In this document: in pieces, positions 43,739 through 48,926 of the stretch
How positions within the stretch are numbered: the first letter of the stretch is position 1
Layout: every line of letters begins with the position of its first letter
DNA from: Arcticibacter svalbardensis MN12-7
GTDB lineage: Bacteria > Bacteroidota > Bacteroidia > Sphingobacteriales > Sphingobacteriaceae
Assembly: GCF_000403135.1 (NCBI RefSeq)
Contig: NZ_AQPN01000078.1
Coordinates: forward strand, 1 to 64,000
Direction: 5' to 3'
Length of the DNA: 64,000 nucleotides
Program-made: the position numbers and the translations under genes
Notes under the pieces: model-generated
What the model saw: only the letters and a program-made list of their open reading frames with translations
Database searches by the model: none
What the model was told of the DNA's origin: nothing

Positions 43739-45616
43739 ATGAAAACCTTGAATAAGAAATTACCCCTATTACTGATTTTGGCGATTTTGCTGGGAACTAA
43801 CGGATGTAAGAAAGATTACCTTAAATCAGATCAACTATCCTCCTATTCCCCAGAAACATCATTGATCAACGTTGCTGCGATGAAAGCGGCCCTTAATTCG
43901 CTGGGTGCGAATATGAGACAGGAATATTTTGGAGACGCCGCACCAATACTTACAGAATCAATCTTTTCAGATGTAGCAGTAGACGGAACCACCGACAAAA
44001 GCACCTCCGCACAGGATTTGATTACACGTATCACACCCGACGCTGAGTTAAATAACACCGATTTTAATAAGATCGGTTGGTATTGGCTTGAAGAGTACAG
44101 AGGCGTTCGATATGCCAATACGATCATCACTTATATCGATAATGTAAAATATACTTCTGAAGCAGAACGTAATTCGATCCTAGGGTCCGCATATTTCTAT
44201 CGAGCATACCATTACTACCGTTTAGTAAATCAGTTCGGAGATGTTCCTTTTCCACTTGTTGATATCGTAGCACCCAAAGATGACTACTACTCTACAAAAC
44301 GCGATGTAATACTTCAGAAAATAAAAGAAGACCTATTATTCGCTCAAACCTGGGTATTAGACAATGTAAACAAAGGAGAAGTTACGAAAGGTGCTGTAAG
44401 CCATTTACTAACAAAAGTAAACCTGGCTTTAGGCAATTTTGATGACGCAATTGCATCAGCAAGCAATATCATTAACGGAACGCAGTATGCCCTGATGAAA
44501 ACACGCTTTGGAAGTACTGCTGCAGATGCCAGCAAAAATGTTATCTGGGATCTTCACCGCATGGACAATAAAGCACTTTCTAGTAACAAGGAAGCATTAT
44601 TACTAGTGATAGACCGCGATAACCTGGCTAGTGGCTTTACTGCTTTTGGATCGCAGGTGATGCGTAACTGTGTACCTGCATGGCATTTTGCAAATGTGAA
44701 AACTCCATCTGGTGCAACAGCTATAACAGATGCGGTTACCGCTGAATTTCCACTTACCAGATGGTATGGTAGAGGCATTGGCCGCTATAGAGGTACACCC
44801 TACAGTACTAAATATATATGGACTGATAATACCGATTTTAGACATGCACCCGGCATGTGGATGAACATGACCGATTTGGTTTATAACAATCCGGCTCTAA
44901 AAAACTCTAGCAATGCAGCAGATAAAGCCCTTTACGGAAAACCTCTTCAGGAATACAACAGTTCTAATGTAGCCGCACGATTTACAAACGGTGCACTGGA
45001 TACGATCCGTCATTGGTTTGGATGGCCACATTATAAGGTTTTCATCAATTCGACAAACCTGATTGCCAATGACCCTTACTGGACTCCACCAAGAGGAACA
45101 AACACAGATTGGTATGTATTCCGTATAGCTGAAACTTATTTACTCCGCGCTGAAGCTTATTACTGGAAAGGTGACCTTGCATCTGCAATGGCAGATATTA
45201 ACCAAGTCCGCTCTCGTGCAAATGCACAATTATTGACTAATTCTGCTGCCATTACTATTGGCACGATACTCGATGAAAGAGCCCGCGAACTTTATTGGGA
45301 AGAGCCCCGTAAAACAGAACTAACCAGGATAGCTTATATTTTTGCCAAGACAGGAAAGACCGCGTATAATGGTAAAACTTATAATTTAGCTTCTTTCTCA
45401 GAGAACAATTTCTTCTATGACCGCATCATTGAGAAGAATGACTTTTATAGGAATCAAGTTCCTACTGTAATGGGAGTAAATTATAAAATTGCTCCTTACC
45501 ACGTGCTTTGGCCAATTCCTGCATCAGCACAGCGGTTTAACGCAAATGGTCGGATTAACCAGAATAAAGGATATTCCGGTTATGAAAACAATGTAGAAGC
45601 ATTGGATAAATACTAA
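43739..45616 (+). CDS. susD: RagB/SusD family surface lipoprotein
   Basis: The protein has 625 residues with a lipoprotein signal ending GTNGC (cysteine at about 23). The SusD N-terminal region includes LGSAYFYRAYHYYRLVNQFGDVPF and the TPR-like helices, and the C-terminus has LDERARELYWEEPRKTELTRI and the usual WPIPASAQRFN...NQNKGY ending. It caps the SusC barrel and binds the substrate at the cell surface. It starts 14 bases after susC and is followed by a terminator. Confidence 0.95.
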   Translation: MKTLNKKLPLLLILAILLGTNGCKKDYLKSDQLSSYSPETSLINVAAMKAALNSLGANMRQEYFGDAAPILTESIFSDVAVDGTTDKSTSAQDLITRITPDAELNNTDFNKIGWYWLEEYRGVRYANTIITYIDNVKYTSEAERNSILGSAYFYRAYHYYRLVNQFGDVPFPLVDIVAPKDDYYSTKRDVILQKIKEDLLFAQTWVLDNVNKGEVTKGAVSHLLTKVNLALGNFDDAIASASNIINGTQYALMKTRFGSTAADASKNVIWDLHRMDNKALSSNKEALLLVIDRDNLASGFTAFGSQVMRNCVPAWHFANVKTPSGATAITDAVTAEFPLTRWYGRGIGRYRGTPYSTKYIWTDNTDFRHAPGMWMNMTDLVYNNPALKNSSNAADKALYGKPLQEYNSSNVAARFTNGALDTIRHWFGWPHYKVFINSTNLIANDPYWTPPRGTNTDWYVFRIAETYLLRAEAYYWKGDLASAMADINQVRSRANAQLLTNSAAITIGTILDERARELYWEEPRKTELTRIAYIFAKTGKTAYNGKTYNLASFSENNFFYDRIIEKNDFYRNQVPTVMGVNYKIAPYHVLWPIPASAQRFNANGRINQNKGYSGYENNVEALDKY

Positions 45617-45674: not shown

Positions 45675-45710
45675 CAGGCTGCCTCTTCCAAAGAGACAGC
45701 CTGTTTTTTT
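45675..45710 (+). terminator. Terminator of susCD
   Basis: CAGGCTG (45675-45681) and CAGCCTG (45697-45703), plus inner CTCTT/AAGAG, form a stem with one mismatch, followed by seven T. Confidence 0.85.
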
Positions 45711-45810
45711 ATGTAAAAAATAAAGGTTATTTTACATCATTAAGGTAAGTAAGCATAATACTAAAACATACCCTTTCTATAGATAGATTATTATTGAAAC
45801 TACATTGATA

Positions 45811-45878
45811 CTAGGTTGAGTCCATGTTAAGTCCATGTATTTACGTAAAAACATGGACTTAACACGGACTCAACCTAG
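45811..45878. repeat. 68-bp near-perfect palindrome built of 11-bp units
   Basis: The arms at 45811-45838 and 45851-45878 match at 27 of 28 positions (the mismatch is at 45865), and the centre TTTACGTAAA is itself a palindrome. Each arm contains two 11-base units of the form GTTRAGTCCAT. The whole element could extrude as a cruciform or fold as a very stable RNA hairpin. It lies between two terminators and so is probably not part of either message. Confidence 0.85.
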
Positions 45879-46022
45879 ATTCATTATACAATTAATAACT
45901 ACCAGACTATAGGATGATATCTTTTTACCTCAATCATAAAGGCACATCCAACCCTCATAAACCCAAGCAAAATAAAAGCCATTTTTTATGCCATAACCCA
46001 ATAAAACAAACTCAATACCAAC

Positions 46023-46054
46023 AAAAAAGCCTGACTCAAATAGAGCCAGGCTTT
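46023..46054 (-). terminator. Terminator of carB
   Basis: AAAGCCTG and CAGGCTTT arms, with inner CTC/GAG and one mismatch, are followed on the reverse strand by TTTTTTG. It lies 55 bases after the carB stop. Confidence 0.8.
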
Positions 46055-46109: not shown

Positions 46110-48926
46110 TTATTTACTTAAATACATTGATTTCTCTTTGTACAATCTCACAAAGTAAGGATCATTCAGATCTTTAATAAAGCGAATCGCTTCTCCGGTA
46201 GACTTCATTTCAGGTCCCAGTTCCTTTTCTACTTCAGGGAACTTATCATAGGAGAAAACAGGTTCCTTAATCGCAAAGCCGATCAATTTACGCTCAATCT
46301 TAAAGTCTTTCAACTTATTTGCGCCAAGCATGATCTTAGTGGCAATATTGATATAAGGCACGTCGTAGGCTTTTGCAATGAAAGGAACCGTACGGGATGC
46401 CCTTGGATTCGCTTCAATTACATATACCACGTTCTCCTTTATAGCAAACTGAATATTCAGCAAGCCTCTTACCTCAATCGCCTTTGCCAGTTTAATGGTG
46501 TATTCTTCCATTAAATCAGTGACATGTTTGGATAAATTAAAAGGAGGCAAGATGGCATTGGAGTCACCCGAATGAATTCCGGCAGGCTCTATATGCTCCA
46601 TTAAACCGATGATATGCACATCCTCACCATCGCAGATGGAGTCAGACTCCGCTTCTTCCGCACGGTCGAGGAAATGGTCAATCAATACCCGGTTACCAGG
46701 AAGATCACCCAACAGTTTAACTACTGCCTTTTCCAGATCCTCATCGTTAATAACGATACTCATACCCTGTCCACCCAATACATAACTCGGGCGAACCAAT
46801 ACTGGATAACCGACATGATGTGCTACTTCAATAGCCTCTTCAGCATTTTCTGCCACACCATATTTTGGATAAGGAATGTCAAGCTCTTTCAGCAAATCGG
46901 AGAAGCGACCTCTGTCTTCAGCAATATCCATGCTGTCAAAAGAAGTACCAATGATCTTAATACCTAGCGCATGCAGCTTTTCCGCCATTTTAAGCGCAGT
47001 TTGACCACCTAGCTGAACAATGACACCTTCAGGTTTTTCAAGCTCAATGATCTCACGTACGTGCTCCCAGAATACCGGCTCGAAGTATAGCTTATCAGCC
47101 ATATTGAAATCGGTAGATACTGTTTCGGGATTACAATTGATCATAATGGACTCATAACCGGCTTCTTTAGCTGCCATCAGACCATGAACACAAGAGTAAT
47201 CAAACTCAATTCCCTGACCGATACGGTTAGGTCCGGAGCCTAATACAATAATCTTTTTCTTTTCGGATGGAATGGATTCATTTTCATCTTCGAAGGTAGA
47301 GTAGTAATATGGTGTTTTAGCCTGGAATTCTGCAGCACAGGTATCTACCATTTTGTAGACCCGGTTAATGCCCAATTCTTTTCTGCGGTCATATACCTCA
47401 TCCTCAGTTACGTTACCCAGGAGCCAGGAAATCTGAATATCAGAATATCCTTTTTGCTTTAAGGTAAGGAAGAAGTCTTTGGGTATATTTTTAAGCGAAT
47501 AGCGTTTGATTTCTATTTCCAGATTAACCAATTCCTGAATCTGGATCAGGAACCATTTATCGATACGGGTAGCCTTGCGGATAGACTCCAAAGGCACACC
47601 CATACTCATGGCATCTTTGATGAGGAACAACCTGTTCCAGCTTGGATGCTCAAGACCATACATAATCTCGTCGAGGTTACGTTTTTGTCTCCCGTCGGCA
47701 CCTAAACCAGAACGGCCAATTTCAAGACTCTGTGTTGCTTTTTGAAGTGCTTCAATGAAAGTACGGCCAATGGCCATTACTTCACCTACCGACTTCATCT
47801 GCAAGCCCAGCTCCATGTTGGCACCCTTAAACTTATCGAAGTTCCATCTGGGTATTTTCACGATCACGTAATCGAGCGTAGGCTCAAAATAAGCGGAAGT
47901 GGTTTTAGTAATTTGATTTTCTACTTCATCCAGGTTGTAACCTATAGCTAGCTTAGCAGCAATTTTAGCAATCGGATAACCTGTTGCTTTTGATGCTAAA
48001 GCGGATGAACGCGATACACGTGGATTAATTTCAATGGCAATGATCGATTCGTCGGCAGGATTTACTGAAAACTGAACATTACAGCCTCCGGCAAAGTTAC
48101 CGATAGCACGCATCATTTTTATAGCCTGATTACGCATGTCCTGGTAACAACGGTCACTCAGGGTCATTGCTGGAGCCACCGTAATGGAATCACCAGTATG
48201 AACGCCCATTGGATCGAAGTTTTCGATAGAGCAGATGATGATCACATTATCCTTACTGTCCCTTAATAGCTCAAGTTCAAACTCTTTCCAGCCCAGTACC
48301 GCTTGCTCTACCAAAACTTCATGAGTAGGTGATGCTTGCAAACCGCGACTTAAAGCTGCGTCAAACTCTTCTTTTTTGTGGACAATACCACCTCCGGTAC
48401 CACCAAGGGTATAGGAAGGGCGGATAACAAGAGGGAAACCAATTTCCTGAGCTGCTTCTTTTCCTTCGAGGAAGGAATTGGCAATCTTAGATTTGGCAAC
48501 ACCCACATTGATATCTACCATCAACTGGCGGAATGCTTCCCGGTTTTCAGTCTTCTCGATAGCAGCGACATCCACTCCGATCACTCTTACATGATACTTT
48601 TCCCAGATACCTCTCTCTTCAGCTTCTTTACAAAGATTTAAGGCTGTTTGTCCACCCATTGTAGGCAGTACAGCATCAATTTTTTGTTCCTGAAGGATTT
48701 GTTCAAGGCTTTCGCATGTTAGAGGGAGAAGATAAATATGATCACCGATCACTTTATCTGTCATAATGGTAGCCGGATTGGAATTAATAATGGATACTGC
48801 TATCCCTTCATCTTTAAGAGATAAAGCAGCCTGTGAGCCTGCGTAATCAAATTCGCAAGCCTGACCGATAATAATGGGTCCTGAACCAATGATCAGGACT
48901 GATTTGATGGACGAATCTTTTGGCAT
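46110..48926 (-). CDS. carB: Carbamoyl-phosphate synthase large subunit, lacking the MGS domain
   Basis: The protein has 938 residues. Two ATP-grasp halves (about 1-540 and 550-938) each carry the usual motifs: GSGPIIIGQACEFDYAG and PSYTLGGTGGG in the first, GSGPNRIGQGIEFDYSC and PSYVLGGQGMS in the second. It makes carbamoyl phosphate for arginine and pyrimidines. E. coli CarB has about 1073 residues; the missing C-terminal 130 residues are the MGS-like domain that binds UMP, IMP and ornithine, so those allosteric controls should be absent. The short form is common in Bacteroidota. carA is not in the window. Confidence 0.95.
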   Translation of the reverse strand: MPKDSSIKSVLIIGSGPIIIGQACEFDYAGSQAALSLKDEGIAVSIINSNPATIMTDKVIGDHIYLLPLTCESLEQILQEQKIDAVLPTMGGQTALNLCKEAEERGIWEKYHVRVIGVDVAAIEKTENREAFRQLMVDINVGVAKSKIANSFLEGKEAAQEIGFPLVIRPSYTLGGTGGGIVHKKEEFDAALSRGLQASPTHEVLVEQAVLGWKEFELELLRDSKDNVIIICSIENFDPMGVHTGDSITVAPAMTLSDRCYQDMRNQAIKMMRAIGNFAGGCNVQFSVNPADESIIAIEINPRVSRSSALASKATGYPIAKIAAKLAIGYNLDEVENQITKTTSAYFEPTLDYVIVKIPRWNFDKFKGANMELGLQMKSVGEVMAIGRTFIEALQKATQSLEIGRSGLGADGRQKRNLDEIMYGLEHPSWNRLFLIKDAMSMGVPLESIRKATRIDKWFLIQIQELVNLEIEIKRYSLKNIPKDFFLTLKQKGYSDIQISWLLGNVTEDEVYDRRKELGINRVYKMVDTCAAEFQAKTPYYYSTFEDENESIPSEKKKIIVLGSGPNRIGQGIEFDYSCVHGLMAAKEAGYESIMINCNPETVSTDFNMADKLYFEPVFWEHVREIIELEKPEGVIVQLGGQTALKMAEKLHALGIKIIGTSFDSMDIAEDRGRFSDLLKELDIPYPKYGVAENAEEAIEVAHHVGYPVLVRPSYVLGGQGMSIVINDEDLEKAVVKLLGDLPGNRVLIDHFLDRAEEAESDSICDGEDVHIIGLMEHIEPAGIHSGDSNAILPPFNLSKHVTDLMEEYTIKLAKAIEVRGLLNIQFAIKENVVYVIEANPRASRTVPFIAKAYDVPYINIATKIMLGANKLKDFKIERKLIGFAIKEPVFSYDKFPEVEKELGPEMKSTGEAIRFIKDLNDPYFVRLYKEKSMYLSK

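Follow-up and report, generated by a model that had tools for sequence, protein, structure and literature searches.

The near-perfect palindrome at positions 45811-45878 of the window, the 64,000-nucleotide stretch of the Arcticibacter svalbardensis MN12-7 genome analysed here, is probably a solo, non-coding copy of a hairpin of approximately 120 bp that forms a cognate pair with a protein-coding gene, the hairpin-gene unit being mobile and the solo hairpins being non-autonomous. We found that the hairpin carries compensatory changes, is dispersed, lies 5′ of the genes of one family and comes in types that match the protein types. The hairpin-gene unit is itself mobile, because near-identical copies of it occupy unrelated loci and one empty site was found. 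Among the observations that count against our explanation as a whole are that the family protein carries no enzyme signature, that no target-site duplication was seen and that some of the stems are short.

Anatomy and dispersal of the hairpin

Aligned with its reverse complement, the 68-bp segment 45811-45878 shows 94% identity; folded as single-stranded DNA it reaches -30.2 kcal/mol, compared with -5.8 ± 2.1 in shuffled sequences (z = -11.75; 0/200 shuffles). An RNA fold over 45780-45910 gave a z score of -10.8, and a search of the window against Rfam matched no known RNA element. The motif TTRAGTCCAT occurs three times in the window, where 0.34 occurrences are expected, and all three lie within the palindrome. 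The earlier note, made from the letters of the window, had described a near-perfect palindrome with two 11-bp units in each arm, which holds with one mismatch in the last unit. It had also placed the element between two terminators and outside genes, in agreement with what we see: the palindrome is intergenic between convergent neighbors, of which one is presumably SusD-like and stops at 45616 and the other is carB-like and stops at 46110, each followed by a terminator-like stem, the first recognized by eye (Table 1). No family gene is present on this contig, making the copy in the window a solo.

The copies of the hairpin align without gaps about a 30-nt core, AGTCC-N20-GGACT. Among 14 related solo copies the information content falls to background beyond about -44 and +76 of the core, and the element is therefore about 120 bp long, consisting of the core flanked on each side by about four 11-bp units in inverse orientation. 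The same edges, -44 and approximately +76, were found in window-type solos, in solos of the second type described below and in gene-linked copies. Thus, the palindrome of the earlier note is real, while its 68-bp extent was too short, the information profile placing the element at about 45786-45903. The spacing of 11 bp that it had read is the dominant period of both arms: in 16 solo copies the self-identity of the arms at lag 11 was 0.53, compared with about 0.28 after shuffling for the left arms and 0.23-0.34 at the other lags tested.

Covariation was evaluated in 18 copies. Both sides had changed in 12 of the 25 stem pairs, 87.8% of the cells were paired, and the number of covarying cells was 35, compared with 16.7 in shuffles (0/500); as the set includes orthologues, these cells are not independent events. 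The covariation score was 0.223, against 0.122 when shuffled (0/500) and 0.03-0.09 when the partner was slid, a control that preserves the relatedness of the copies. In some gene-linked copies the stem is short (approximately 5-7 bp). Two hairpins, L134 (in genome G055) and L168 (in A. eurypsychrophilus), are very long, with three perfect 11-bp units per arm (GTGAGTGCACG and AGTGATGCCAC, respectively); their sequence is unrelated to that of the window type, yet the spacing of the 30-nt core is identical.

Table 1. Coordinates of the hairpin element and of its neighbors in the window.
Feature	Position	Strand	Basis or remark
Whole hairpin element	45786..45903	.	approximately 118-120 bp; four 11-bp units, 30-nt core, four inverse units
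Near-perfect palindrome	45811..45878	.	self-reverse-complement and DNA fold
30-nt core AGTCC-N20-GGACT	45830..45859	.	spacing equal to that found 5′ of family genes
11-bp unit GTTGAGTCCAT	45815..45825	+	
11-bp unit GTTAAGTCCAT	45826..45836	+	
11-bp unit of inverse arm; top strand ATGGACTTAAC, read inversely GTTAAGTCCAT	45853..45863	-	
11-bp unit of inverse arm, one mismatch; top strand ACGGACTCAAC, read inversely GTTGAGTCCGT	45864..45874	-	
Left arm, outer decayed 11-bp units	45786..45814	+	lag-11 self-identity and information profile
Right arm, outer decayed 11-bp units	45875..45903	-	lag-11 self-identity and information profile
Flanking gene, presumably SusD-like (context)	43739..45616	+	ORF
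Flanking carB-like gene (context)	46110..48926	-	ORF; the same gene adjoins hairpin L075 in A. eurypsychrophilus
Terminator-like stem and T-run past the SusD-like gene (context)	45676..45711	+	by eye; absent from the scanner's output
Terminator-like stem past the carB-like gene (context)	46026..46054	-	terminator scan

The palindrome is not a single copy lacking relatives in sister genomes, the result that the earlier note had named as speaking against it. The A. svalbardensis genome (4.69 Mb in 149 contigs) holds at least 36 hairpins of two sequence types, and sister species are equally rich. The type of the window, AGTCCRTGT-N(4-18)-ACAYGGACT, was found in nine places, all intergenic, with none in the reversed control; two of the nine (on contigs C63 and C140) are at family genes and seven adjoin unrelated genes. 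The genome count proposed in the earlier note gave a divided answer, as GTTRAGTCCAT alone is not enriched (10 occurrences, 9 in the reversed controls) whereas the palindromic pair is (9 versus 0). The second type, AGTCC-N15-AAGTYGGACT, occupies 27 distinct places (control, 1). Twelve of these are at family genes, and the other 15 are solos between unrelated genes, whose arrangement is convergent, tandem or divergent.

Outside A. svalbardensis, window-type hairpins were counted nine times in A. eurypsychrophilus MJ9-5 (G041), four times in G107, which belongs to another genus of Sphingobacteriaceae, three times in G055 and twice in G020, the carriers, related bacteria from soil and glaciers, being in all 8 of 301 genomes of the family; a search of named genomes returned A. 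eurypsychrophilus MJ9-5 and Pedobacter hiemivivus. G055 also has a third hairpin type, private to it, in seven places, six of them at family genes. At least five hairpin sites, including that of the window (L075, beside the carB-like gene), are common to A. svalbardensis and A. eurypsychrophilus. For most site pairs between these two genomes synteny is kept on at least one side and is often broken near the hairpin. In the pairs L052/L076, L054/L071, L056/L072 and L058/L206 the synteny breaks or insertions often lie within approximately 50-150 bp of the hairpin.

A linked gene family and its mobile units

The genes linked to these hairpins form one paralogous family, found in 28 of 296 sampled Bacteroidota genomes, with 23 matches in A. 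svalbardensis, 20 in G020, 19 in G055, 9 in G107 and 27 in A. eurypsychrophilus MJ9-5, in which there are at least 47 hairpins. We examined the linkage in the 48 family genes of A. svalbardensis and A. eurypsychrophilus. An exact AGTCC-N20-GGACT core was present within 600 bp 5′ of 40 of these genes, and all 48 had a core in the 450 bp ahead of the start codon (40 exact, six with one mismatch and two with two mismatches). AGTC-N22-GACT was present in none of the 48 either within 600 bp on the 3′ side or within the first 600 bp of the gene, and the best matches to the core on the 3′ side, in the gene interior and in shuffled sequences had two to four mismatches. The core lies on the strand of the gene, approximately 70-440 bp and mostly 175-440 bp ahead of the ATG, distances based on simple ORF and start calls in which starts may be misplaced, e.g., for L112 and the genes of 406-407 aa. 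In further genomes, the window type was found 5′ of family genes in 3/3 (G055), 2/4 (G107) and 2/2 (G020) cases. In G055 each of the three copies precedes the same 314-aa gene by approximately 250 bp, within repeats of 1.3-1.4 kb that are 95-98% identical.

Protein subfamily and hairpin type correspond, similarity between proteins being correlated with similarity between their hairpins (Mantel r = 0.66; 0/2000 permutations). Hairpins of the AGTCCATG type go with the L054/L057/L170 subfamily, AGTCC...AAGTCGGACT hairpins with the 321-aa subfamily and GTGAGTCTACC...GGTAGACTCAC hairpins with the 361-aa subfamily of G055, while the triplicate 11-bp hairpins (GTGAGTGCACG, AGTGATGCCAC) go with the 280-282-aa genes L134 and L168. 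Such a correlation is expected if the two are inherited as one unit; it demonstrates that gene and hairpin travel together and does not by itself imply that they interact. Outside Sphingobacteriaceae no strong hairpin was found upstream of most family members. One exception is L193 (in G574, from another family of the class), where a family gene is preceded at 162 bp by an imperfect hairpin whose 11-bp direct repeats contain AGTCC, suggesting that the association reaches past Sphingobacteriaceae. The genome of G574 does have Y1 transposases.

Near-identical hairpin-gene units of 1.2-1.5 kb with sharp ends were found at unrelated loci. In G055, L140 and L142 share 1512 bp at 99.3% identity, from a left end at CTAAACTGTACC to a right end at the stop codon, with no target-site duplication visible; other units of this genome share approximately 1.3 kb at 96-98% between unrelated flanks. 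Further pairs are L061/L063 of G107 (approximately 1.2 kb, 94%) and L064/L066 (approximately 1.3 kb, 97.6%). In the G055 and G107 subfamilies similarity stops at the stop codon or within a few bases of it. The exceptions to this end point are L064/L065 and the 406-407-aa group, with at least 100 bp in common past the stop; in the 321-aa subfamily of Arcticibacter similarity can extend approximately 60 bp past it. Among close relatives the stop codon varies: in the 361-aa subfamily of G055 the same position holds TAG, TGA or TAA. This suggests that the unit may take its final bases from the flank. In A. svalbardensis, the ORFs of L118 and L124 run 8-9 codons beyond the usual conserved C-terminus, as if the flank had supplied the stop. 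The unit at L116 of A. svalbardensis has an empty counterpart in A. eurypsychrophilus, with flanks otherwise 90-92% identical, the difference also taking in approximately 235 bp beyond the stop codon. For solo hairpins, no clean empty site with both flanks was obtained. Movement appears to be slow or old, since several solos, including that of the window, are common to two species at the same locus.

To characterize the family protein we compared it with sequence and structure collections. It had no match in Pfam, NCBIfam, PHROG or PADLOC, and no relative in the PDB by sequence. A family borne by plasmids or phages was rejected, as tblastn against plasmid and phage collections gave no match. 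For a compact member, AlphaFold2 predicted (pLDDT 88.6) an N-terminal part with strands and helix and a C-terminal beta-sandwich. In a fold search, the C-terminal half gave weak resemblances to C2, FnIII and GH2 beta-sandwiches (best Z 6.8 over 104 residues, rmsd 3.5), which may reflect merely a common arrangement; Foldseek against the PDB returned nothing with E below 1e-3. Transposase folds were not among the matches listed in this weak fold search, which could miss one, and the protein does not look like a known transposase. An HUH motif is absent: any H-x-H was found in only 2 of 30 members, in unrelated places, and there is no conserved H column. DUF6266 (PF19781) resembles the family in being multi-copy in A. 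svalbardensis (seven copies, some in tandem) and, by eye, in a GxxGxV...P N-terminal pattern. The two differ in that the PF19781 model matched none of 30 family members, while it matched seven other genes of the same genome. On contig C43 of this genome (146232-147701) a family gene directly adjoins a DUF6266 gene.

Related systems and alternative explanations

The nearest likeness is to REPINs and RAYTs, described as the one case known in prokaryotes of an intragenomic sequence population that is stably maintained (PMC8049555). Both systems have dispersed, intergenic, imperfect palindromes capable of forming hairpins, a palindrome at the edge of the gene of a cognate protein (here 48/48, on the 5′ side only and with another protein family), and several types of palindrome within a genome, matched one by one with protein subfamilies. 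The elements themselves differ, REPs being 20-40 bp long and tagged with GTAG or CGTC, and the present one combining AGTCC-N20-GGACT with 11-bp arrays within approximately 120 bp. RAYTs are single-copy, vertically inherited genes (PMC8049555), and transposition of REPtrons as whole units is reported not to occur (PMC6006769); the present partner, which is no Y1/HUH protein, exists in many copies as part of a unit that moves. Given this copy number and mobility, the lack of a GTAG/CGTC tag and the absence of Y1 transposases from all six genomes searched in the genus, the hairpin system is not a member of the REPIN-RAYT family. The proposal of the earlier note that the palindrome is a REP-like mobile repeat finds support in outline, from the dispersed intergenic copies, the covarying hairpin, the cognate gene family and the relatives in sister genomes, and fails with regard to a RAYT partner, for which it had suggested looking.

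That a RAYT or another Y1 (HUH) transposase nevertheless mobilizes the hairpin as a REP/REPIN family seems to us quite improbable. The anatomy is alike, with a dispersed intergenic palindrome and a cognate gene that has the palindrome at its edge, and Bacteroidota do possess Y1 transposases, those of subclass 2.6, flanked by 'atypical secondary structures' (PMC6006769). These share with the present system the phylum and the flanking structures with copies elsewhere in the genome; they differ in that their gene is a Y1 transposase. Against this reading, Y1_Tnp is absent from the A. svalbardensis genome and five other genomes of the genus (0/6), while control genomes were matched; the cores begin with AGTCC and not with GTAG or CGTC; and RAYTs are single-copy and vertical (PMC8049555), whereas four genomes here have 19-27 copies of the gene. 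There is a similarly slim chance that the hairpin and its 11-bp iterons are a rolling-circle-type origin or a transposon end, on which some unrelated HUH Rep or Y2 transposase would act in trans. The lack of a visible target duplication at L140/L142 fits such an end, as does the origin of pMV158, where RepB binds three 11-bp direct repeats and nicks the adjacent hairpin (PMC9943647), making it a useful mechanistic analogue. The present arrays, unlike those of pMV158, lie on both sides of the hairpin in inverse orientation, and the elements are chromosomal and multi-copy, with no RepB-like partner identified; in addition, a survey placed no genes of A. eurypsychrophilus MJ9-5 in its category of phages, prophages, transposable elements and plasmids (PMC5435697).

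The main rival, which we consider unlikely, is a regulatory element, where the hairpin would be an operator or structured leader of each family gene, possibly bound by the family protein, and the solos would be remnants of lost genes or sites serving their neighbors. The strictly 5′, same-strand placement approximately 70-440 bp before the ATG speaks for it, as do the matched hairpin and protein types and the 11-bp phasing, which sets the units on about one face of the DNA. A length of 11 bp is also one turn of A-form RNA. However, in A. svalbardensis 15/27 copies of the second type and 7/9 of the window type adjoin unrelated genes, whether convergent, tandem or divergent, similarity among solos stops at both edges of the hairpin, unlike what gene remnants would leave, and the variable distance to the ATG is ill-suited to an operator tightly coupled to one promoter. 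The abundance of solos with symmetric ends argues against regulation as the explanation. A bidirectional transcription terminator or a nucleoid or segregation site, the latter having been suggested in the earlier note, has next to no likelihood. The convergent position in the window and the long, stable stem would suit these roles, but no T-run follows the stem on either strand, the terminator scan did not list the hairpin, copies also lie between divergent and tandem genes, and along complete chromosomes they are spread out (in G107 at 0.18, 0.49, 1.81 and 3.71 Mb of 4.64 Mb) and bound to one gene family. We therefore rejected both terminator and segregation site on context and distribution.

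Among known mobile elements, MITEs are likewise short, non-coding, dispersed and capable of forming hairpins, and stand beside a longer, gene-bearing relative. The partner here is not a known transposase, and two further points may set the present elements apart from MITEs: no target-site duplication was visible at L140/L142, and the hairpin corresponds to the 5′ end of the gene units, whose 3′ end bears no inverse copy.

Proposed mechanism and significance

Our preferred explanation, a mobile hairpin-gene pair with non-autonomous solos, can be put as follows. Each subfamily-specific hairpin forms the 5′ end of a unit with a single gene, composed of hairpin, leader and an ORF of 250-410 aa, which is present in many copies and has been inserted at many loci. 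The solo hairpins would be its short, non-autonomous counterparts, standing to it as REPINs do to RAYTs. By analogy with REPINs, the hairpin element probably operates in a comparable manner, its structure being recognized when single-stranded or extruded. We infer that it acts as single-stranded DNA or as a cruciform, that its 11-bp-phased units allow a recombination enzyme to recognize it, and that copying would take place when the structure is exposed, e.g., in replication. The candidate actor may be the family protein itself or another enzyme acting in trans. A bolder version, which we regard as doubtful, is that a beta-sandwich protein unrelated to any known transposase, recombinase or HUH nuclease recognizes the 11-bp-phased hairpin and spreads both units and solos, which would define a new class of mobile elements.

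A literature search, covering few subscription journals, found no description of this hairpin-gene system. It looks like a second, independent system on the REPIN-RAYT plan, with another partner protein and in a genus without RAYTs. Mobile DNA is shown in A. eurypsychrophilus, although the survey recorded no genes in its phage and transposable-element category (PMC5435697). Finally, an unclassified protein family of Bacteroidota, found in 28/296 genomes and in up to 27 copies per genome, gains a cis-partner and therefore a testable function.
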